DNA of 64,000 bases, taken from the NCBI GenBank assembly GCA_963556695.1, contig CAUWAG010000007.1, positions 558,001-622,000 of the forward strand, given 5' to 3'. The notes beneath the pieces were generated by a model, which searched no databases, was not told where the DNA came from, and saw nothing but the letters and a program-made list of their open reading frames with translations. Made by a program: the position numbers and the translations under genes. This DNA comes from Anthostomella pinea (lineage: Eukaryota > Ascomycota > Sordariomycetes > Xylariales > Xylariaceae). Numbering within the stretch: the stretch's first letter is position 1; each line of letters begins with the position of its first letter. Below are positions 2,328 through 50,859 of this stretch, one piece after another.

Positions 2328-2899
2328 CGGCCGTATGGCGCAATGGTCAAATGCGCCTGGCTGTGTTCTCGTTTGTGCGGTGGGCGACGAGAACAAGTGG
2401 GATCGAATCCTGCTACGGCCCCCTTCTGACCCGGCTTGTGCGAGTCGACAACCAGCACACGACAGTAGAGAGGGCTTCTTATTACAGAGCCCCATAGCCA
2501 AAGGCTTGTCTCCATAACACCCACTCCTGTGAGGTTTTTCCCCTTGTGGTTTCCCTCGCCAGTAGATAACAAACACCTGCTTCATCCACCAATGCGACAT
2601 ATATCGAACGGCTATTGGGACGATATGTACACCAGAGGACTGAGGTCCACTGGGTCGCTTTGTCACTAGACAGGAGGTTTTTCTGACGGAATCGTGCTTG
2701 GGTATTGACTAAAACTATCTGGAACACTCCAGGTTGGTACCGCTACAGCGAGGATGGGCTCGTGCGCGGATTTGAATGTATCTAGACTGACACCTCTACA
2801 ACCTTGCGATGCAATGGCACTGGGAGGCGTAGTTTGCCCTGCTGAGGGACTGCACCCACGATAAAGAAAATCAAAATCAAATCAATCAATCAAAATCAT
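2328..2899 (+). mobile_element. tRNA-derived SINE, copy 1 (about 570 bp)
   Basis: Three-part element. (1) A 92-bp tRNA-like head at 2329-2420. (2) A body of about 330 bp with no ORF. (3) A tail of about 130 bp (from about 2745) that matches the 3' end of the LINE copies in this window, ending in a TCAA/TCAAA-type simple repeat. It is flanked by a perfect 14-bp target-site duplication. It aligns end to end with the second copy at 26970-27528, with scattered substitutions and some small indels, so it is an older or different-subfamily copy. It codes for nothing and depends on a LINE for mobility. SINEs are known from fungi (for example Foxy in Fusarium), but I cannot name this family. Confidence 0.85.
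2329..2420 (+). promoter_or_regulatory. tRNA-like SINE head with Pol III A and B boxes (copy 1)
   Basis: The acceptor arms GGCCGTA / TACGGCC pair over 7 bp, and the D-stem is GCGC/GCGC. The A box TGGCGCAATGG (2336-2346) fits TRGYNNARNNG. The B box GGATCGAATCC (2400-2410) differs from GGTTCGANTCC at one base. In place of a normal anticodon arm there is an 8-bp hairpin, GTTCTCGT / ACGAGAAC. It is a tRNA relic serving as an internal promoter, not a functional tRNA. Confidence 0.8.
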
Positions 2900-3195: not shown

Positions 3196-6100
3196 TTGAT
3201 TGATTGATTGATTGTATTTAACGTGGGGGATCGCTCCTCAGTAGTGCAAACCGCGCCTCCCAGAGCCTCTGCATCGCAAGGTTGTGGAGGTATCAAGATA
3301 ATAAATACAGTCAGTCCCGCTCACGAGCCCATCCCTGTTGTTGCGGCTGTATAACTTTGGGGTCATTCATCTGGTCCTTTAAGAACAGCTATCTATTAGG
3401 GACAGATTGATGAAAAGAACTTGCTCTTCTCAACAAATCTTGCCCATTCCGCGCTTCTCTCTCCCAAGTATTGTAAACAGGCTGTCCTAAGCGAGTACCT
3501 GGGCAGTAATCAGTTTTTCCCAAGTCTCTTATAAAAGAAAATATATTATGGTGTTTTCTTCTTACCGCAGCTGCAGTGGTCATTCGAGTCTGTATGCCCA
3601 AAATGTTCGTGATATCTAGGAAAGTCGCCATGTCCAGATCTGGCCGCTAGAAGTCTGTGTAGAGTGCTTCTTTCAAAGGATATAAGGTCTCTTTTAGTTA
3701 TTATATATGAATATACTTTTTGATATTTAGGTTCTAATTGGTCTTTTTATTATTAATCAAATTCTTTCTTGTCCTTTTTTTTGAGATCTCTCTTTATCCA
3801 AGAGATTGTGGGAAGGTTCGTCACGTCCGTTTCTAGCATGGCATCCTCTTTTATTAATGTGTTAGTAGCTTTGTTGCCATTGATATCTCTGTGTCCAGGA
3901 ATCTACTTGACGGTCACTCCAGGAGTGTGTGTTGTGGCAAGTTCTTGGAATCGTAGAAAAATATTCTGTGATATCTCGGGTGGAGTCCGATTGAGCCCAT
4001 CTACCACTGACGTGTTGTCCAGGCAGACATATAGCTATTTCTGCGTCCAACTGCCTTGGTTGTTATAAGACCTTAGAGAGCGCTATGGACTTCAGTATCT
4101 ATTATTTATGTTTATAGAAGTCTGTCTTTTTCCTGATATACTTCTTGTATAGTGCCGCCTTTTCTGATGGTATAACCCCATCCAGTGCGGGTTGTGCCTT
4201 GATTGTCCAACTGTGATCCATCCGAGTAGATGACAAGGTCAGTGTTCACATTTCTCTCTTGTAACCATTTCTTGAAGAGCTCTATTTTTTTGTCTTTATC
4301 CTTATAGATTAGGGACTTCTTCTATGATGGCTTGGTGAGTATTGGTCTCTAGAAGTCAGGGATTAGCTAAAAACTCTTTTATAACCTTGTTGGTTCATTG
4401 TGAGCCTATATTTAGAGCCTGCTAATAAGAGGGTATCTCTGGTCTATTTATTCGAGTCGGAGGCCATGACGTCGTCTTATTGACTCAGTGAGAACTCCTG
4501 CTAGGAGAATCTGTGATTCAAAGTGTAGGATATATCCTGGGTGTGTTTTCCAGACCGGTAAGATAGCCCTGATCGCTGTTCGTAGTACAGCATTTATCGT
4601 TCTAAGAAGCCCCTTAATGCGACATGCTGATGTCCCACCTAAGCTCCCGACTTTCTCGATTCCTGGGTACCAGGCCTCCAGGCCGTGTGTAAGAATAGGA
4701 ATAACACAAGCTTTCACAGCCCTCTTGGTTGACTTTACTGGAAGTCCTTTGACTGTGTTGTATAGTCCTCGAAGGTGATTTGTTACCTTATTAGCTTTCT
4801 TGGCCCAGTAGGAAACGTGATCTTTGAAGTTTAGTTTTCTATCCAGGAAGACACCCAGCCATCGCATGGAGTCCTTTGCTGTTTTGTTCATTGTCCCGTG
4901 GCGGACTGGAGGGTTGTCTGAGTTCTTTTTTCGTAAGAAGTGCATAATCTCGGTTTTATCAGGGTCAAATTCAATAGTATTATCATGTCCCTATTGATTA
5001 AATAAATAAACGTTTTTAGTAGCCTTTATGACTGTTTCTTTAAGGTTCTCTCCAATATAGAGAGTCGCTAGATTGTCTGTGTATCCAAAGCGTCTCCTTT
5101 TCATACCAAGTCGGGCACAGATTGGCTCTGTTTATAGCATATAAAGGATTAGAAAGGCCAGTAAGCCTTGTGATAGCCCATAAGTGAAAGCTTTTATATC
5201 AGTCACAATACCTTCAAACCAAACTGTTGTGGACCGCTCGGACATGAATGACTGGACCCATCTTATAAGAAAGCCCGGCCAGCCCTGTTCTCTCATGCGA
5301 ACCACCAGCCGTCTCATTAGGGCAGCGTTAAAGGCTTTTTCACATCTGACGTGGCTACCGTTGCGACGAGGCCTTGGTCGAGGGTCTGCTCCATATTGTG
5401 TATGAGTGCAGCTACCAGGTCAGTGACAGAGCGCTTTGGTAGAGCTCTGAAATGTTATAGAGCTAGAATTCCAAATTTAATAACAAACCAGGCAATTCTT
5501 TTTGTAATGAGTCGTTCTAAGCCTTTGCCAAGACATGATAACAGCGATATTGGTCTGTAGGCCCTGGGGTTGGAATAGTCTTTCTTGCCTGGTTTTGGGA
5601 TCATCACCACCTTAGCTACTTTGAATGATTTAGGGTGGTGTCTGATCTGTAGATAGGTCTAGAAAAGGGCTCTGACATGTTCCCCAATGACTGGCCAGCA
5701 AGCTTTCAGAATCCGTACTGTGAGGGTGTCTACTCCCGGGGAATTGCTCTTGGTCCCTATAGTGGACCCTTCAGTCTCTTCTAGTCCGACATGGTATTCA
5801 AGGGGGATATGTGGCTTGGGTTGTGTGATCTGAGCGGACCAAGGGTCGATGATATCGTTGTCTGGGGTACTTCGTTCAAGTATGGCTGAGCATAGCGTAT
5901 TTGTCTTGCTCTTTTGTGACTCAGATATTTGATCTCCTATAATGATTGGGGGGGAACACAATCCTACAAATAGCTTGTGCCAGAAAACGATTCTGTACAG
6001 GTCCTTTGGTTCAATCGCTGAATCAATTAGAGTTTGTCAGTACTCTCTCCTAGCTTTCTGAACCATGTGACAAAAGTCCTGTCGGGCTGAATTCTGCCCT

Positions 6101-6598
6101 TCTTGGTTTGTGGTCTGTTTAGAAAAGGCCCTGTATGTCTGAATAGCTGCTTTGCATTCATCATTCCACCAAACAGTGGGCCTAGATTGTCGGGGCTTCT
6201 TGCCCACTGTCCTTACACAGCCTTGGATCATGTTGATCAAGCTCTGCGTAAAGGCGTCCACCTGGCCAGGGGATGCACCCAGCCGGGGGAGCTCGTGAAT
6301 CCTGTTTTGGACATTATCAACCAGCTCTTGTAGTTTATCGTCTGGTACTATCCAACGATCGGCCTTGGGGACCCGGTCTAGGTCTCCCTGAATTGGAATA
6401 ACTATTTGTAATGTCTTGTGATCTGAGGTACACTGGAGTGCATCATTCACTGAGGCTTTAGCTATAAGGATATCTGAGAAGACCAGATCTAGTACGTTTC
6501 CGTCATCATATGTCAGGAGGTCTGGTTCAGAACTCAGATCCAGTCCGTGATCTGTCATAGTCTGTGCGAGTATAGCACCACCATGATATCCTGGGGCC
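3196..6598 (-). mobile_element. 5'-truncated LINE, copy A (about 3.4 kb)
   Basis: The minus strand carries the endonuclease C-terminus, reverse transcriptase and RNase H of a non-LTR retrotransposon, ending at about 3196 in a CAAT-type tail. It aligns over its whole length with copy B (about 22280-25677). The homology stops abruptly at about 6598, in the middle of the endonuclease domain; 5' truncation is typical of LINE insertion. I see no clear target-site duplication, so one flank may have been lost. Its 3' terminal 100-150 bp are shared with the SINEs. Confidence 0.85.
3389..6597 (-). pseudogene. LINE copy A ORF2 remnant (endonuclease C-term, RT, RNase H)
   Basis: Reading down from 6597 the order is as follows. 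First the endonuclease end (NVLDLVFSD, CTSDHKT) and a linker with WWNDECKAA. Then RT blocks around 5960-5000, with SQGLLAFLILYML near 5132-5317 and a thumb region at 4448-4945. Last an RNase H-like region with CLPGQHVSGRW on the minus strand near 4050. Several stop codons and frame changes break the frame, so it cannot make an active protein. Many stops read TAG/TAA where copy B or the family reads CAG/CAA/TGG. This copy keeps CAG at the site that is TAG in copy B (22485), so the two copies decayed partly independently. Confidence 0.8.
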
Positions 6599-20072: not shown

Positions 20073-20085
20073 CAACCTCTTGATG
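20073..20085. repeat. Target-site duplication, 5' copy, of LINE copy B
   Basis: CAACCTCTTGATG (13 bp) recurs exactly at 25678-25690 after the CAAA-type tail of LINE copy B. The first three bases could be part of the tail, so the unambiguous duplication is at least 10 bp. Confidence 0.85.
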
Positions 20086-20225
20086 CAAACACTCTTACCA
20101 AAAACAACTATTTTTCTTGGCGCCCCGCTGTTAGGGCGCAACCTCTATATCTGCACTAAAACAGGCATTTATTTCAGTACCTGACTATCCTTGCCAAGGC
20201 GCAGAAAATTTTTCTCACAAGCTGG

Positions 20226-21803
20226 ATGGCACCCCTTCACGATAGGCCCCCAAATACGCCAGTGGCCGTCCCAAAGACGACTACTGGCGGCGTGCTCAAA
20301 TCCCTGGTCCCTAAAAGAACATATGGCCCGGCAACCCCAAGCAAGCTCCGCCAGGCACTGCTCGACGACATCAACAGCAGCCCGTCACAGGTCTCTGAGG
20401 CTGACTTCACCATTGTTTCCCCTCTGAAAGGAAAATCCCGAAATATTAATACTAGCAGCATCATTGATATGGAAGTACCTCAATCAAACGAAATCTCTAC
20501 AGACTAAGCCATTGGAGGCGATACAGGGAACAAGGTCTCTTCCTCAAAGTGCCAGGACCAAGTAGCCAAAATACTGGCTAAAGACAAGCATCTCTATGAA
20601 GCCAGGATGACAATGTTTCAAGAGTGTGCTGCAGCAGTCGATAAGACACTGGAAAAAGCTGGAACCGAACTATACTCTCATGCCAAGGAGTTCAGTGCTT
20701 TCTTCTCCAAATGCCTGAACGAGTGGCTGGAAACCCGAGATCTGCCCAAAAGAAAGACCACTCCTGGCGGGATAGGGATAGGGAAGCCCACCATGACCTT
20801 CGCCCAAGCTGTCTCCTCTGGCCAACGACAGCATCCATGGACAGTCAACACTACCATGAAGAAAACACAGCCTGGCGCCCTTATCACTACCAACCAACTG
20901 AAAAAGAAGCAGGATGATTTCCGGGTCTTTGTCCGCATGGATAATAGCCACTTAGAGCCTTATGGAATCAAGTCTACACTGAACAGAAGACTTAAGCTCC
21001 ACCCTCAGGAGCTTAGAGAAGTGACACGGTGTCCTTCTGGTTTTACCTTACACCCAAGGGACAAGCCAACTCAGGCTAAGTTTCTGGCTTTCCAAGAAGA
21101 AATTGCCGACATTCTTAAGGCACAAAAGATTGAGACCCACACAGTCTGGCATCATTACAAGGTCAATGGATGCCCAAGAAAGGTCATCAGTGCAGAAGGG
21201 TTCACAATCGATATTACCGACACTGTTGTTGCTGATAAAGTTGAAGCCCAAACAGGCGACAGACCTCTGAGGTGCATACTCTCAAAGAACACGATTGATT
21301 CTGATCCAGAAACTACATGGATAATCTCTCTGCCCAGTGCAGCAAGGAAACCATTCACGCTTTTTGCCCACTCAATGACCTCAAGGCATATTCAACACAC
21401 CCCTAAGGTTCACCAGTGTGCAAGCTGCTTCAGATACCATGGTAGGAATTACCGATGCGAAAAGCAAGTATGTGTACACTGCGCCAACACAGTACACCAG
21501 GGAGAGTGCGAAAAACCAATCCCAAAGTGTGTCAACTGCAAAGGACCTCATGCTGCCAACTTCGACAAATGCCCTGCCCGCCCCAAGGTTGTGAAAGGTA
21601 CCATCCATAAGCACACATGGGAGCAAATCCAGGAAATAAGGCTAGCCGGAGAAAGAGCCAGATCCAAGGCCTTCAACGAAGCAGGCAGAAACCAAGCTGG
21701 GTCAACACCTAGTAACAATAGCAAAGACACCACAATGCAAATCGACACAACAGATACAACTCATCCCAGAGATGCCGATACCATTGTTGTCAGTCAATGT
21801 TAG
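20226..21803 (+). pseudogene. LINE copy B ORF1 (gag-like, zinc knuckles), one nonsense codon
   Basis: From ATG 20226 a single frame runs 526 codons to TAG 21801-21803, broken only by TAA at 20505-20507, most simply a CAA-to-TAA change. The N-terminus is Lys/Thr/Pro-rich, the middle has a helical region (KLRQALLDDIN and, after the stop, ARMTMFQECAAAVDKTLE), and the C-terminal third has three CCHC-like knuckles: CASCFRYHGRNYRC, CVHCANTVHQGEC and CVNCKGPHAANFDKC. In this family ORF1 is an RNA-binding chaperone that packages the element RNA. The rest of the frame is intact over 1.3 kb, so the decay is recent or light. Confidence 0.88.
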
Positions 21804-24800
21804 GTACATCAAACGAAACACATCAACACGGGCATCTAGTCATCCATTCTGTGAATACAGCAAGAGGACAAAAGAGTGCAGGCCCTACAGAGTTAGCCAT
21901 CAACCTGGCTGACTACAAAGGAGAACAAGCAGACATCATTCTGATGCAAGAGCCCTGGGTTGGCATACTACCAGAAAAAAGAATGAGAGTAAAGACACAC
22001 CCCAATTACGATATATACTCCCCAGTGGATTCTTGGGACAGCGACAGTACACGGCCCAGATCTCTCATCTATGTGAGAAAACACCTTTAAGCGGATCAAC
22101 TTCGGCCCTATGTTACACGAGACATCACCTGGGTCAAGAGGCATTACATTTGCCAGTGTCTACCGGCCATGTGACAACCCACAGGAAGTGGATGACATTC
22201 TGGAAGTATGGACTCCACCTTTTGGCTGCGTTATAGCTGGAGATTTCAATGCTGGCGACACATCCTGGGACTCGAGCAATCCAGGATATCATGGTGGTGT
22301 CATACTTGCACAGACTATGGCAGACCACGGACTGGATCTGATTTCTGAACCAGATGTCCCAATACATGATGACAGAAATGTACTAGATCTGGTGTTCTCA
22401 GATGTCCCCATGGCCGAAGTCTCAGTGAATGATGCACTCCAGTGCACTTCAGATCATGAGACATTACGAATAGTTGTCCCAATTTAGGGAGATCTAGACT
22501 GAGTCCCCAAGACCAATCATTGGATAGTACCGGACGATAAATTATAAGAGCTTGCAGACAATGTCCAAACCAGGATCCATGAACTCCCCCGGGTGGGTGT
22601 ATCCCCTGGCCAGGTAGATGCCTTTACACAAAGCTTGATCAATATGTCCAAGGCTGTATCAGGACAGTGGGCAAGAAGCCCCGTCAATCTAGGCCCACTG
22701 CTTGGTGGAATGATAACTACAAAGCAGTTATTCAGACATACAGGGCCCTTTCTAAATAGACCACAAACCAAGAAGGGCAGAATTCAGCCCGACAGGACTT
22801 TTGTCGCATGGTTCAGAAAGCTAGGAGAGAGTACTGGCAAACTCTAATTGATTTAGCGATTGAACCAAAGGACCTGTACAGAATTGTTTTTTGGCACAAG
22901 CTATTTGTAGGATTGTGTTCCCCCCTAATCATTATAAGAGATCAAATATCTGAGTCACAAAAGAGCAAGACAAATACGTTATGCTCAGCCATACTTGAAC
23001 GAAGTACCCCAGATAACGATATCATCGACCCCTGGTCCGCTCAGATCACACAACCCAAGCCACACATCCCCCTTGAATACCATGTCGGACTAGAAGAGAC
23101 TGAAGGGTCCACTATAGGGACCAAGAGCAATTCCCCGGGAGTAGACACCCTCACAGTACGGATTCTGAAAGCTTGCTGGCCAGTCATTAGGGAACATATC
23201 AGAGCCCTTTTCCAGACCTGTCTACAGATTGGATACCACCCTAAACCATTCAAAATAGCTGAGATGGTAATAATCCCAAAACCAGGAAAGAAAGACTATT
23301 CCAATCCCAGGGCCTACAGGCCAATATCGCTACTATCGTGTCTTGGCAAAGGCCTAGAACGACTCATCACAGAAAAAATTACCTGGTTTGTTATCAAACT
23401 TGGAATTCTAGCTCCATAACATTTTGGAGCTCTACCAAAGCGCTCTGCCACTGACCTGGTAGCTGCACTCATACACAATATTGAGCAGGCCCTTGACCAA
23501 GGCCTCGTTGCAACAGTAGTCACGTCAGATGTGAAAGGGGCCTTTGATGCTGCCCTAATGGGACGGCTGGTGGTTCGCATGAGAGAACAGGGCTGGCCGG
23601 GTTTTCTCATAAGATGGGTCCAGTCATTCATGTCCGAGCGGTCCGCAAGGGTTTGGTTTGAAGGTATTGTGACTGATATAAAAGCTTTCACTTATGGGCT
23701 ATCACAAGGCTTACTGGCCTTTCCAATCCTTTATATGCTGTATATAGAGCCAATTTGTGCCCAACTTGGTATGAAAAAGAGACGCTTTGAATATACAGAC
23801 GACCTAGCGACTCTCTGCATTAAAAAGAACCTTAAAGAAACAGCTACAGAGGCTTCTGAAAATCTTTACTTGCTCAGTCAATAGGAACATAACAACGCTA
23901 TTGAATTTGACCCTGACAAAACTGAGATTATGCACTTCTCAAGGAAAAAGAACTCAGACAACCCTCCAGTCCGCCACGGGACAATGAACAAAACAGCAAA
24001 GGACTCCATACGATGGCTGGGTGTCTTCCTGGATAGAAAACTAAACTTCAAAGATCACGTTTCCTACTGGGCCAAGAAAGCTAATAAGGTAGCAAATCAC
24101 CTTCGAGGACTATGCAACACAGTCAAAGGACTTCCAGTAAAGTCAACCAAGAGGGCTGTGAAAGCTTGTGTTATTCCTATTCTTACACATGGCCTGGAGG
24201 CCTGGTACCCAGGAATCGAGAAAGTCGGGAGCTTAGGTGGTACATCAGCATGTCGCATTAAGGGGCTTCTTGGAACAATAGATGCCATACTACGAACAGC
24301 GATCAGGGCTATCTTGCCAGTCTAAAAAACACACCCTGGACATATCCTACACTTTGAATCGTAGATTCCCCCAACAAGAGTTCTTGCAGAGTCAATAAGA
24401 CGACGTCACGGCCTCCGACTAGGACGAATAGACCAGAGACACCCTTTTGTTGGCAGGCTCCAAATACAAGCTCGCAAAAATCTAATAAGGCTATAAAGGA
24501 GCTTCCAGTTAGTCCCTGATTTCCAGAGACCAATACTTACTAGGCCATTATGGAAGAAGCCCCTAATCCGTAAAGACAAAGACAAAGAAATAAAGCTCTT
24601 CAAGTAATGGCTACAGGAAAGAAATATGAACACTGACCTTGTCATCTATTCAGATGGATCACAGTTGGACGACCAAGGCACAACCCACACTGGATGGGGT
24701 TATACCATCAGGAAAGGTGGCACTACACAAGAAGTATACCGGGGAAAGGGCAGACTTCTCCAAGCAGAAATAATAGATGCTGAAGTCCATGGTGCTCTCC

Positions 24801-25405
24801 AAGGTCTTACAGCAGCCAGGGCAATTGGACACGGAAAACAGCTATATGTCTGTCTGGACAACACGTCAGTGATAGATTGGCTCAATGGGACTCCACCCAA
24901 GACATCACAAAACATTTTTCTACGATTTCAAGAACTTGCCACAGCACACACTCCTGGAGTGACCGTCAAATGGATTCCTGGACACAGAGATATTGATGGC
25001 AACGAAGCTGCCGACACACTAACAAAAGAGGGTGCCATGCTAGAAACAGACACAACAAATCTTCCTACAATCTCTTGGGTCAAGAGAGATCTCAAAAAAC
25101 AGGACAAGAAAGAGTTCAACCAATGGTGGAAAGACCAATCAGAATCTAGGTATCAAGAAGTATACTCACATGCAGTAACTGAAAGAGACCTTATATCTTT
25201 TAAGAGGAGTACTTTACACAGACTTCTAGCAGCCAGATCTGGACATGGCGACTTTGCCAGATACCATGAACGCTTTGGGCACACAGACTCAAATGATCAC
25301 TGCAGCTATGGTGAGAAAAAAACACCACAACATATTTTCTTTTGTAAGAAGCTGGGGAAAAATCGGCTACTGCCTAGGCATTCGCCTAGTACAGTTTGTT
25401 TATAA
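21797..25405 (+). pseudogene. LINE copy B ORF2 (endonuclease-RT-RNase H), disrupted
   Basis: ORF2 ATG 21797 overlaps the ORF1 stop by 7 nt. The domains read: APE-type endonuclease N-term (21797-22090, ILMQEPWVG); after a frame change near 22090-22110, its C-term (GDFNAGDTSW, LVFSD, CTSDHET); then a linker. The reverse transcriptase follows at about 22810-23880 (IPKPGKKDYSNPRAYRPISL, VTSDVKGAFDAAL, SQGLLAFPILYML, YTDDLAT as the catalytic block), then the thumb at 23930-24325. RNase H lies at 24626-25100 (YSDGSQLD, AEIIDAEVHGAL, LDNTSVIDWL, WIPGHRDIDGNEAADTL). Stops at 22088, 22485, 23882 and others, plus a 1-nt loss near 22640 relative to copy A, break it. Most stops fit CAG/CAA or TGG changed by C-to-T or G-to-A. 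Confidence 0.88.
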
Positions 25406-25544
25406 TACTTAGGGGAGAGGAGCACAGAATGGGCAAAATTCGTGGAGAAGAGCAAGTTCTTTTCAACAATCTGCCCCCGATAGATAGCCTTCCTTGAAGG
25501 ACCAGATGGATGACCCCAAGGTCATACCGCCGCAACAACGGGGA

Positions 25545-25677
25545 TGGGCCCGTGAGCGGGACTGACTGTACTTATTATCTTGAGACCTCCACAACCCTGC
25601 GATGCAGAGACTCTGGGAGGCGTGGTTTGCACTACTGAGGAGCTACCCCCACGTTAAATACAAAACAAACAAACAAA
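25545..25677 (+). repeat. LINE 3' module shared with the SINEs
   Basis: The segment beginning near CGTGAGCGGG and containing ACAACCCTGCGATGCA, GGGAGGCGTGGTTTGC and ACTACTGAGGAGCTACCC, then ACGTTAAATACAAAACAAAC, aligns with the last about 130 bp of SINE copy 2 (about 27400-27528), the tail of SINE copy 1 (about 2745-2899) and, inverted, LINE copy A (about 3196-3345). The 3' end of a LINE is what its own reverse transcriptase recognises. Confidence 0.88.
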
Positions 25678-25690
25678 CAACCTCTTGATG
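25678..25690. repeat. Target-site duplication, 3' copy, of LINE copy B
   Basis: Exact repeat of 20073-20085. It carries an ATG, but the short frame from that ATG stops after 18 codons, so it is unlikely to be the SGNH start. Confidence 0.85.
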
Positions 25691-25790
25691 ATTTCCCAGG
25701 ACAAGACAACCACCATCGAAGTCAGAAACCCAAACTTCGAATAGAAGTCCTTGACTCAGAGTCCCTCCAGCGTGTTCAGATCGGCCTGTC

Positions 25791-27735
25791 ATGATCTGTC
25801 ACTGTTTCCTATTTCTGGCATGCGCCAGTGTGGTCTGCTGCGGGAAGTTTTCGGACAACTTGAAATACAACAAAGATCGAGCCTATGTTTCCTACCTTTG
25901 AGCCAGCATGTATTCAAGTGTCTGACGCTAAACCTCGACGCGGAACAGCTTTGTTTTTGGCTGTTCAGGGTCAAGTATCAGCGGAACCTTGGATCCTAAC
26001 GTGAGATACCCTGCGAGTTTTCCATGAGCCAAAATCTCGGTCTCGATCCCGATCCAAGCACCACAAAGACATCATAAGCAGAAACATCAGTCACTGACAA
26101 CCCGGGGTCGCAGTGGAAAAGGTTTTTTGGCAGCAAAAAGCTCTATAAAGCGGAGGAAGCGTCCGGCTCCGATTCGGGATTGGAGGACAAGATCGCCAAA
26201 GACAAGATTCTCCAAGGACCCGGAAGAACGTTTTCTGACAGAGCTACATGGTCCCAGTACTTGACACGATGTGGTGTGAAAAGCGGCACCCATTTCCCCC
26301 TCGGGTGCGATACTGAGCTTTGGAACTTGGCATGTCCTGTTGCATACATATCCGACATCTACATGTCTCCCGATAAAAATAATTGGGACGATGTATTGAG
26401 CCTAGTGGAGCAGGTACAGCAGTACCTGACACAGCTCGAGCCTATCATGGGCCCTCGTATCAACAAGGACAAGGCCATAGTGTTCATCTGGATAGGCCTC
26501 AACGACATGGGCCAGTACCGAAAACTGAACGGTAAAGACTTTCTGGAAACTGCGGAGAGAGTAAATACGCCCATATTTACGGAGGCGATACAGCCTATGT
26601 ACGAGAAAGGATTCAAGAACTTCGTCCTTTTCAACCTGCAACCCCTCGACCAGAGCCCCTCTAACCAAGAGCGAAAAGGCAAGGTGGAGAGTCCATCGCC
26701 AACACCGGAAAAGATAAAAGATGTGAACAAGATGCTCGATGGACTCAAGAAAGAGTACAACAAGAAACTCAAGGATGCGAAGATCGAGCTTTACGATGTA
26801 AATTCACTCCTCACGAAGATGACTAAGAACCCTGCGAAGTATGGGTTCACGAACACGAAAGGACCCGACCAGCAGTTCAGAACCCAAGCTTTCAATCCAG
26901 ACAGCAGCACGAACCTCGAGCTCTTGCGCAGCTACTATTGGTGGGATAAAGTACACTTGTAAGCAACCGAGGCCGTATGGCGCAATGGTCAAATGCGCCT
27001 GGTTGTGTTCTCGTTTGTGCGGTGGGCGACGAGAACAAGTGGGTTCGAATCCTGCTATGGCCCCCTTTCTGACCCGGCTTGTGCGAGTCGATAACCAGCA
27101 CACGACAGTGGAGAGGCCCCATTTTATCGCAGAGCCCGATAGCCAAGCAGCTTGTCTCCACAATACCCACTCCTGCGAGGTTTTCCCCCTTGTGGTTTCC
27201 CTCGCCAGCAGATAACAAACACCTACTTCACCCACCAATGCGACATATATCGAACGGCTACTGGAACGATATGTACACCAGAGAACTGAGGTTCACTGGG
27301 TCGCTTTGTCGCTAGATAGGAGGTTTTTCTGACGGAATCGTGCTTGGGTATTGACTAAAACCATCTGAACACTCCAGATTGGTACCGCTACAGCGAGGAT
27401 AGGCTCGTGCGCGGATCTGAATGTATCTAATTTGACACCTCTACAACCTTGCGATGCAATGGCTCTGGGAGGCGTGGTTTGCACTACTGAGGAGCTACCC
27501 CCCACGTTAAATACAAAACAAACAAACATTGTAAGCAACCGCCCCGTCGTGTACTTCTCTCATTTTGGCAGTGAGAGGAAATACTTACAAACATCTTAGG
27601 ACCTCACGAGTACATCAGTATATCGCCGAGGACGTAAGGAGTTTCATTGCAACCAAATGGGGGACGAAGGTCTGGGAGAAGCCGGCTTTGACGGAAGACA
27701 AGGCGGTCACAGGATCCAAATTCTACCGAGCCTAG
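25791..27735 (+). CDS. SGNH/GDSL esterase (CE16-like), carrying SINE copy 2 in its last intron
   Basis: Best model: exons 25791-25886, 25969-26000, 26134-26958 and 27600-27735, all in phase, 362 residues. Exon 1 gives a signal peptide (MICHCFLFLACASVVCC). Exon 3 holds TWSQYLTRCG, the block III region IWIGLNDMGQY with GxND, FVLFNLQPLDQSP and TKNPAKYGF, as in secreted fungal carbohydrate esterases. Exons 3 and 4 join as WWDKVHL|TSRVHQYIAEDV, restoring the block V DxxH catalytic motif. The canonical block I GDS is not visible; GSDSG at about residue 60 is the nearest candidate, so activity is doubtful. The ancestral last intron was 69 nt (27531-27599); it is now 641 nt (26959-27599) because a SINE inserted at its donor. 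LINE copy B separates the gene from its TATA box. The first two exons are the least certain part. Confidence 0.65.
26957..26969. repeat. Target-site duplication, 5' copy, of SINE copy 2 (contains a splice donor)
   Basis: TTGTAAGCAACCG. The exon ends with TT and the intron starts GTAAGC inside this repeat. It recurs at 27529-27541. Confidence 0.92.
26970..27528 (+). mobile_element. tRNA-derived SINE, copy 2 (about 558 bp)
   Basis: Same three-part layout as copy 1: 92-bp tRNA-like head (26971-27062), body, and a tail of about 130 bp that matches the LINE 3' end and finishes in CAAA repeats like LINE copy B. It lies in the sense orientation inside the last intron of the SGNH gene, with a perfect 13-bp target-site duplication. 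The B box is perfect, and the tail matches LINE B better than copy 1 does, so this is the younger copy. Confidence 0.92.
26971..27062 (+). promoter_or_regulatory. tRNA-like SINE head with intact Pol III A and B boxes (copy 2)
   Basis: The A box TGGCGCAATGG (26978-26988) and the B box GGTTCGAATCC (27042-27052) both match the consensus. Acceptor arms GGCCGTA / TATGGCC pair with one G-U. An 8-bp hairpin (GTTCTCGT / ACGAGAAC) replaces the anticodon and variable arms, so it is likely derived from a long-variable-arm (class II) tRNA. Confidence 0.82.
27529..27541. repeat. Target-site duplication, 3' copy, of SINE copy 2 (the original splice donor)
   Basis: Exact repeat of 26957-26969. Continuing from here the original 69-nt intron reads GTAAGC ... 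CTTAC ... CTTAG and ends at 27599. Confidence 0.92.
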
Positions 27736-49269: not shown

Positions 49270-50859
49270 GATCCCTACGGCCTGGAATGTTCAACTCCGT
49301 GCTATGTCGGTCTGGTAGCTAAACACGAGCAATGTCTGTGGCACGGACGCTGCTGTAGGCTCGAGAAATCGAAGATCTGCCGTCACACGGATGCTGGCAG
49401 GTGCACCAACTGGACCAAGTATCATCATGTCAGCACGAACGGCGACGACGACGATACACAATTCTTGCACAAATACATACAGTATCCGCCCTCTTTCCTG
49501 GTATTCTGTGCGCACTTCTTCAAGGTCGGCGTCGAGACATCGCTTGCTGAAATGTATCGCACGCAGATACAGAGACGGCTCGACCGCGTGTACAGCGATC
49601 TAGGTCCCAACGAGCGGCCCTTCCTCGAACAACAGGCAAATTACTTCGTCGACATGCGAAAGCTCGGCGAGGCTATTCTTGGTCAGTTCGCCGTGTACTG
49701 GGATATGCAGGCCAACCCAGGCCCTCAGACCCTTCAAGCACCGAGATTTTCGCTTCGACCGGGACGGGGTAGGTACCCGGAGGGCCTCGCGACCGGCCCT
49801 GAGGAGTTGCAGTTCCGAGGAGGTCCCTGGGTTTCGGATGACAAAGGCACTGTCGCGTGGTCTTATAATGTACACGTCGGCTTGTGGCCTCAATTAACCA
49901 CTATTATATCGCAACTGTCACTGTGCGATGACCCGAGCTTGTTCCCTTGGTGCTATTTCCCACAGCCGCCTGCTCAGACCCAGGACATGCTTCTCGCTCC
50001 TCCGCAGTCCACAATGTCGACCGGCACCGCTCAGCTCATGGATCTGGATGGTCCAGTAGGTCCTTTACCACCCCCTCGCAATCCACTGGTGGCGCTGCCC
50101 CAGTCTCTTGACATGCAGACTCTTGACCTGCAGATTATGCAGTCTCTTGACATGCAGTCTCTTGACATGCAGCAGCTACGTGGTATAAACCCAGGGGCGG
50201 ATCTAACCCCTACGCCTGTATCTCAAGCATACTCAGATGGTCAGGCTGCGAACGGAGCATCAGCACCAGCAGCGGCAGTACCAGACGTATACGATTCCAC
50301 GCCCTATCCGCAGGAATCCTTTGCGAACCTCCCCAAGACGTATGGTGAACATGTTCAATTAGAAGACATGGTAAGCCTTGACCTGATGCTCCCCCTGGAC
50401 CCCCTACCACCGCAGATTACCGAGGACGTGATGCCATCGAACCACGAACACGGTGGTGATCAGGTCGGCAGCGGTGAAGATGACACTGGCTTTCTTAACG
50501 CAGCGGCTGTGCCAGACGTATACAAGTCCATGTCCGATCCGCAAGAATTCTTTGCGAACGGCCCCGAGCCGTATGGTGAATATGTCCAATTGGGAGACAT
50601 GGTAAACCTCGACATGGTAGACCACGACATGGTAGACCACGACATGGTAAACCTCGACATGGTAAACCTGGATATGGTAAACTTCGACATGGTAGACCCC
50701 GACATGGTAAACCTACCCCTGGACCCCCTACCACCGCAGATCACCGAGCACGCAACGCCGGCGATCCCCGAACACGGTGGCGACTGGGACGGCGGCGATG
50801 AAGATCACACAGACGTTATTGACGCAGCGCACAGTGTACTCGATGAGATAGGCTGGTGA
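49270..50859 (+). CDS. Unrecognised protein: Cys-rich N-terminus, acidic repeat-rich C-terminus (5' end uncertain)
   Basis: The frame is open and protein-like from a probable splice acceptor (TTCCAG at 49264-49269) to TGA at 50857-50859, about 529 residues. The N-terminus is a dense Cys cluster (LECSTPCYVG, HEQCLWHGRCCRLE, KICRHTDAGRCTNW) with seven cysteines, possibly metal-binding. If translation began at the first ATG (49552) this cluster would be lost, so an upstream exon is likely. Next comes a helical region (RTQIQRRLDRVYSDLGPNERPF), then an acidic, Pro-rich C-terminus built from repeats: LDMQ units, two large repeats each starting AAVPDVY and ending LPPQITE, and eight DMVNL-type pentapeptides. 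I do not recognise a family. The acidic, hydrophobic-dotted tail would suit a transcription activation domain; that is inference. Confidence 0.6.
   Translation, partial: DPYGLECSTPCYVGLVAKHEQCLWHGRCCRLEKSKICRHTDAGRCTNWTKYHHVSTNGDDDDTQFLHKYIQYPPSFLVFCAHFFKVGVETSLAEMYRTQIQRRLDRVYSDLGPNERPFLEQQANYFVDMRKLGEAILGQFAVYWDMQANPGPQTLQAPRFSLRPGRGRYPEGLATGPEELQFRGGPWVSDDKGTVAWSYNVHVGLWPQLTTIISQLSLCDDPSLFPWCYFPQPPAQTQDMLLAPPQSTMSTGTAQLMDLDGPVGPLPPPRNPLVALPQSLDMQTLDLQIMQSLDMQSLDMQQLRGINPGADLTPTPVSQAYSDGQAANGASAPAAAVPDVYDSTPYPQESFANLPKTYGEHVQLEDMVSLDLMLPLDPLPPQITEDVMPSNHEHGGDQVGSGEDDTGFLNAAAVPDVYKSMSDPQEFFANGPEPYGEYVQLGDMVNLDMVDHDMVDHDMVNLDMVNLDMVNFDMVDPDMVNLPLDPLPPQITEHATPAIPEHGGDWDGGDEDHTDVIDAAHSVLDEIGW
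50101..50175. repeat. In-frame repeats encoding SLDMQ/TLDLQ units
   Basis: CAGTCTCTTGACATG and variants repeated about five times in frame, giving a Leu/Met/Gln-rich stretch. Confidence 0.75.
50596..50715. repeat. Eight in-frame 15-bp repeats (GACATGGTAAACCTC type)
   Basis: Eight tandem 15-mers alternate between GACATGGTAAACCTC and GACATGGTAGACCAC types with few changes, encoding DMVNL/DMVDH. They lie within the second of two larger protein repeats; the first copy has a single equivalent unit (DMVSL), so the array expanded after the larger duplication. Confidence 0.88.

Follow-up and report, generated by a model that had tools for sequence, protein, structure and literature searches.

A tRNA-derived SINE and a LINE share their 3' end at one locus of Anthostomella pinea, with signs of tail renewal in a young SINE subfamily

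Elements at the locus

The window, by which we mean the whole 64,000-nucleotide stretch of the Anthostomella pinea genome analysed here, holds four elements between 2.3 and 27.5 kb, namely a first SINE (SINE-A), a truncated LINE, a full-length LINE and a second SINE (SINE-B). SINE-A (2328-2899, plus strand) is an older SINE with its own variant of the 3' end and an AATC-type tail, and lies between copies of the duplication CATCCTCCTCCATA at 2314-2327 and 2900-2913. SINE-B (26970-27528, plus strand) is a full-length member of a young subfamily, made up of a tRNA-like head, a body, a LINE-type 3' module and an (AAAC)n tail, and is bounded by TTGTAAGCAACCG at 26957-26969 and 27529-27541. The full-length LINE (about 20086-25678, plus strand) is bounded by AACCTCTTGATG at 20074-20085 and 25679-25690, the first A of the 3' copy possibly belonging to the tail. 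All of these plus-strand duplications, 12-14 bp in length, were read directly in the window, in agreement with a preliminary description of this DNA that had assigned target-site duplications to both SINEs. The SINE-B duplication holds the TAA stop of a GDSL-lipase-like open reading frame (26180-26962), and SINE-B stands directly after that stop.

The preliminary description had also spoken of a full LINE with RNase H upstream of its shared 3' end. The copy does extend over the full length, but stops interrupt its frames: a remnant of ORF1 runs for 431 amino acids from stop to stop without a Pfam match (20508-21803), and ORF2 survives as an endonuclease piece (PF14529, 22077-22487), a reverse transcriptase piece (RVT_1, 23420-23884), which falls just below the gathering score in this broken copy and above it in an open copy, and the RNase H piece that had been noted (PF00075, 24608-25405), all on the plus strand. 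The second LINE copy (3197-6594, minus strand) is older, 5'-truncated, 89% identical to the full copy, and ends in (AATC)n. Elsewhere in the window, at 50269-50829, 117-bp direct repeats of 80-83% identity lie within an open reading frame of 464 amino acids (49465-50859).

The tRNA-like head of the SINE

ARAGORN called one tRNA-like gene with anticodon GTG in each SINE and no further tRNA in the window, which bears out the earlier proposal that both SINEs carry a tRNA-like head. In SINE-B the head was placed at 26971-27065 (plus strand) by ARAGORN and by its fold, and it contains TGGCGCAATGG and GGTTCGAATCC, which we take to be the A box and the B box on the basis of the box consensus. The head folds into a cloverleaf-like structure in which a long extra hairpin replaces the normal anticodon arm (z -1.92; 7 of 200 shuffled sequences folded as well), and the His(GTG) isotype label is therefore not to be trusted. 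Of two tRNA genes similar in length to the head (98 and 102 nt) that were read as candidates, neither was clearly the parent, a point that counts against the explanation favored below.

Genome-wide counts were taken from the 53.7-Mb assembly, which comprises 16 contigs. A 29-mer of the head has 184 exact matches there, while its reversed control pattern has none. A 5' head that is related to tRNA and contains pol III boxes, as judged by the consensus, is one mark of a tRNA-derived SINE, and by this mark the family, with a length of about 560 bp, is tRNA-derived. Runs of four to five T within the SINE could stop pol III, and likewise count against that explanation.

Clusters of tRNA genes with like spacing recur on several contigs (C1:19235-29712, C2:322559-323334, C2:3461084-3462487, C9:2765567-2766970, C13:197368-206045, C15:14717-16120 and C16:4954607-4955382), and may be inserts of mitochondrial DNA.

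A 3' module common to SINE and LINE

SINE-B and the full LINE are identical at 125 of 147 aligned columns (E 6e-43, in a two-sequence comparison). Identity is 84% across 135 columns between SINE-B and the minus-strand LINE copy, and 75% across 140 columns between the full LINE and SINE-A. The module common to both SINEs and both LINEs of the window measures about 145 bp, and by alignment occupies 27385-27528 in SINE-B and 25530-25675 in the full LINE, both on the plus strand. The central claim of the preliminary description, that a SINE and a LINE lying within the same 25 kb share their 3' end, thus stands, and the SINE is a putative LINE-dependent, or "stringent", SINE, its 3' end being homologous to that of a LINE of the same genome. 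The three motifs that had been quoted for the shared segment are exact in SINE-B and in the full LINE, but not in the other two copies: where they were expected SINE-A reads GGGAGGCGTAGTTTGCCCTGCTGAGGGACTGCACCCACGATAAAG followed by its AATC-type tail, and the minus-strand LINE has substitutions within them. Four folds of the terminal 60 nt or so brought out no common 3' RNA hairpin (z from -0.55 to 0.64), which counts against the explanation favored below.

Allowing up to 3 mismatches, the genome contains 647 matches to a 35-mer of the module, and none to the reversed control pattern. For a census of these sites we used the first 40 of the 100 that were listed, all of them exact matches on contig C2, each with 6.3 kb of upstream sequence; given that the pattern is that of the LINE-type end, SINEs with the older end are invisible to this census. 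Among these matches 31 sites belong to the LINE, 9 to the SINE and none to anything else; seven of the nine SINEs run the full length and include the head. The two ways in which the proposed sharing might have failed, that the segment was a separate element or that the head was missing from other copies, were thus not borne out, the head 29-mer being as frequent as it is. That the segment is an independent small repeat which inserted into both elements is scarcely credible, and is refuted at the sampled sites, since all 40 lie at the 3' end of one or the other element, in the same orientation and never alone.

Two of the census SINEs (L016 and L024) are 5'-truncated, as incomplete reverse transcription would leave them. 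All nine census SINEs have flanking duplications of 9 bp or more (10-15 bp), as do 17 of the 31 LINEs (10-16 bp), compared to 20 of 2000 mismatched flank pairs. The dispersal of copies that have target-site duplications and end in a simple repeat is a further mark of a tRNA-derived SINE, and it is seen here. The 14 census LINEs that have no duplication count against the favored explanation. For five LINEs (L013, L018, L019, L032 and L044) the start had been set too far downstream, these copies continuing upstream of an insert or deletion, and correction brought one more duplication to light (in L019); a further LINE, L027, runs off its locus.

The LINE family

In open copies of the LINE the ORF1 frame has 547 codons and no Pfam match, and the overlapping ORF2 frame has 1255 codons; an apurinic-type endonuclease, a reverse transcriptase and an RNase H in ORF2 all score above their curated cut-offs. 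This architecture, together with the fungal host, suggests that the LINE belongs to the Tad1 clade (Tad1/I-like). Nine uninterrupted full-length LINEs were available, eight from the 31 census copies plus the window copy, and both frames are open in five of them, the window copy not being among the five. Three others (L018, L019 and L032) are nearly full length, each with a small insert.

Eleven young LINE copies form a supported clade (100/99), outside which the full copy of the window falls, and six young full-length LINEs differ pairwise at 15-51 of about 5,590 sites. Given that LINE tails end in either AATC or AAAC repeats, a clean switch from the first to the second was considered and dropped, the two being partly interleaved on the tree with 5 changes, compared to a mean of 7.3 after shuffling. 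The labels do cluster more than shuffling usually produces (6 and 13 of 500 shuffles were as low). The tail repeat of the LINE is therefore no clean marker of old and new, and this interleaving counts against the favored explanation as well.

We do not claim a strong signature of repeat-induced point mutation in the broken window LINE, although transitions dominate, because, per site, C changes to T ahead of A (45 of 561) about as often as ahead of T (28 of 361), and more rarely than ahead of G (18 of 152).

Several LINE copies show further rearrangement. Three full-length LINEs on contig C2 (L035, L036 and L038, at about 4.144, 4.196 and 4.225 Mb) have cyclically exchanged flanking duplications, the 5' flank of L035 matching the 3' flank of L038, that of L036 the 3' flank of L035, and that of L038 the 3' flank of L036; the cycle looks like the trace of a rearrangement through recombination between LINE copies. 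Three young full-length LINEs (L014, L022 and L023) are nested insertions in older LINEs of their own family. Two LINEs, L018 at 4907-5123 and L019 at 4976-5195 (oriented), are interrupted by a repeat of about 220 bp that has relatives in L021, L028, L037 and L044; with an overlap of 6-8 bp at the LINE insertion points, and with ends CTGTAACGGC and GCCGTGACAG that resemble inverted repeats, this repeat is perhaps a small DNA transposon. A different insert of about 157 bp lies in L032, with relatives in L034 and L039.

Two SINE subfamilies

When an 80-bp 3' stretch was matched with up to 3 mismatches, the young, LINE-tailed SINEs came to 98 copies, of which 82 are exact; the 98 include early tail-swapped copies and one separately joined copy described below. 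A second, older subfamily has the same head and body with a different end, GAGGGACTGCACCCACGATAAATAC with AATC repeats, and SINE-A groups with it. A 30-mer finds 169 copies of the older subfamily; an 80-mer that extends leftward into SINE sequence finds 129, among them 25 exact ones. Estimated from the share of exact copies, the older subfamily is about nine times more diverged (2.1% versus 0.22% per base), a rough figure in which the cut-off trims the oldest copies.

The older end is tied to the SINE almost wherever it was found: on contigs C2-C7, 53 of the 59 old ends among the matches listed could be tied to a SINE (30 by an exact head at the right distance, 22 by the SINE-left pattern, and one by being read). 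The left part of the LINE joined to the old SINE end has no match in the genome (80 bp, up to 3 mismatches).

Compared to the young majority over 414 body sites, the seven full-length census SINEs have 0, 0, 0, 3, 4, 7 and 18 differences, and eight copies nearest to SINE-B, which were picked for their likeness, have 0-2. The SINE bodies and the young LINEs are of similar age.

Diagnostic sites in the module

A three-way comparison of the young SINE, the old SINE and the LINE, leaving out the repeat tail, revealed where in the module the young SINE changes its affinity. At 16 sites the young SINE agrees with the old SINE and not with the LINE, and every one of these falls to the left of a 22-bp stretch shared unchanged by the three; at 10 sites it agrees with the LINE and not with the old SINE, 8 of them right of that stretch and 2 in a patch on the left. 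The sites fall into 4 runs, an order reached by 10 of 200,000 permutations (p=5e-5), and the same test with one tail column included (16 and 11 sites) gave 2e-5.

The left patch varies among tail-swapped copies (GACTGA, GTCTGA, GTTTGA, ACTTGA and ATTTGA), and for that reason its two sites look like later mutation. Tail-swapped copies at C14:3827391 and C9:1960777 have the old state in the patch, and those at C9:500697, C10:139856, C9:654450 and C16:6209524 have intermediate states. In addition, L041 combines the LINE-type end with a body in which 5 of the 11 diagnostic sites are in the old state. Given these copies, the end would have changed first, on an old-type body, and the lineage of the burst would have arisen later.

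One further copy (C2:6431900-6432055) joins an old-type left part to the LINE end with the junction further left, reading GCAGAGG and not GCAATGG, and was found once. From its sequence it looks like a second, unsuccessful capture; it could also be a swapped copy with two point mutations. The SINE thus seems to have taken a fresh LINE tail and then to have spread in a recent burst, and both the intermediates and the separately joined copy fit template switching from LINE RNA.

Discussion

Taken together, the shared module, the tRNA-like head, the duplications on both elements, the simple-repeat tails, the hundreds of copies, the open LINE frames and the two SINE tails make it likely that a Tad1/I-like LINE mobilizes the SINE in trans through its reverse transcriptase and endonuclease, and that the young subfamily arose through capture of the LINE tail. 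The suggestion made at the outset, that the SINE recruits the LINE's machinery through its tail, gains support from the outcome for a separate insertion and for a missing head. By analogy with what is established for non-LTR elements, pol III would transcribe the SINE from its internal promoter, the ORF2 protein of the LINE would bind the 3' module of the SINE, and the SINE would be copied at a nicked target by target-primed reverse transcription. The old SINE body would at some time have gained the last 40-60 bp or so of the LINE together with its (AAAC)n tail, which would have created the young subfamily. The likely route is a template switch: reverse transcription starting on LINE RNA would pass to SINE RNA within the common 22-nt stretch, and would give exactly the young SINE, with the LINE end and the LINE repeat. 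The tail-swapped lineage would then have proliferated during the activity of the present young LINE lineage.

The history of the older end is less clear. With at least 129 copies carrying an end that differs from the LINE ends observed, either close identity of the tails is not strictly needed for mobilization or some other partner existed. One reading, though we would not call it probable, is that the SINE kept one LINE family throughout while its end drifted, and that the 3' end of the present LINE was recaptured by template switching in at least two captures, one of which led to the burst. It is conceivable, with somewhat less confidence, that the SINE instead switched partners, its old end coming from a different LINE that is now gone or unrecognized and the young subfamily taking the tail of the present one. 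The old end was not found on the present LINE in the 80-bp search, and a subfamily as successful as the older one must have had some working partner; on the other hand, the old end and the present LINE still have in common the 22-bp core, ACG-TAAATAC and the AATC repeat (the last in 8 of 31 LINE copies), and the 53 of 59 old ends that are tied to the SINE, among the matches listed for C2-C7, brought no second LINE into view.

It is also possible to dispute the direction of the change or the manner in which the LINE end arrived. That the SINE acquired the LINE end through gene conversion or ectopic recombination of DNA, involving a LINE copy and a SINE copy, and not by template switching, we consider unlikely. 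LINE copies do seem to recombine in this genome, as the flank cycle on contig C2 indicates, but the replaced part extends to the extreme 3' end and includes the repeat tail, as it would with a start on LINE RNA, a conversion tract has no reason to end at the 3' terminus, and template jumps have been reported for MGL, a fungal LINE, in the portion of that report available (PMC2104539). More doubtful still is the proposal that the LINE-like end is ancestral, and that mutation or the capture of another tail removed it from the subfamily that looks older. A SINE with a LINE-like end must once have acquired it, and certain LINE-tailed copies, such as L041 (18 of 414 body sites), show fair divergence. 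However, the subfamilies differ at 3 aligned sites in the left part of the module compared to 8 in the last 40 bp or so before the repeat tail, copies with the old end are the more diverged by the rough estimate above, and LINE-tailed copies with the old state of the left patch exist. If recapture from a single LINE family is indeed what happened, a SINE would have a recurring means of staying matched to its LINE, by renewing its tail from that one partner.

Tail sharing of this kind had been introduced in the preliminary description as a feature of animals and plants. That it occurs there is not in dispute, but it is not confined to them, and fungal pairs are already known, a kind to which the present pair belongs. 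Those parts of the literature that were accessible list Mg-SINE/MgL of Magnaporthe and SINE2-1_BG/Tad1-24_BG of Blumeria as SINE/LINE pairs (PMC3747384), and describe a similarity between the 3' end of AfuSINE2-1a and the 3' UTR of I-1_AF, a Tad-clade LINE of Aspergillus fumigatus (PMC5063351). As far as these sources extend, the Mg-SINE/MgL (MGR583) pair resembles ours in having a tRNA-type SINE whose 3' end is like that of a LINE; the template jumps that join Mg-SINE and MGL (PMC2104539) are described as giving WEIRD/Mg-SINE/MGL fusions, unlike the SINE subfamily with a renewed tail found here. The Blumeria graminis pair, to judge by its table entry, likewise combines a fungal SINE with a Tad1 LINE. 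AfuSINE2-1a, by its description in the excerpt at hand, is a tRNA-related SINE with a LINE-like 3' end, as is ours, whereas near-identical young copies, open LINE frames and two subfamilies that differ by a replaced tail set the present pair apart from it.

Replacement of the end that a LINE recognizes, by way of template switching, is stated as a route of SINE revival in animals in the passages we could consult (PMC7983390, PMC5729268), and the route proposed here is the same as that given for Squam3 and for the CR1-tailed SINEs of passerines. Those are animal cases, and in passerines, as described in those passages, the head was swapped; here it is the tail of a fungal SINE that was replaced, with the join and the intermediates in one genome. 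A literature search found no paper containing any of six k-mers of the SINE/LINE pair, and the literature on fungal SINEs, including Xylariales, to the extent that it was accessible, yielded no publication on this family. Few fungal SINE/LINE pairs have been worked out, the available sources offering two fungal entries in one table (PMC3747384) and the case of Aspergillus fumigatus (PMC5063351).

The part of these observations most worth following is the readable trace of tail renewal before the burst. The pair shows signs of recent activity in a compact genome, and one SINE body occurs with two 3' ends, which makes possible a direct test of how much 3' sequence a fungal LINE protein needs, and of whether a change of tail can by itself cause a burst.

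The spacer that precedes the 5.8S gene in the rDNA contains repeated TACCCTGTAG units (L055 and L056), and such units are typical of Xylariales.
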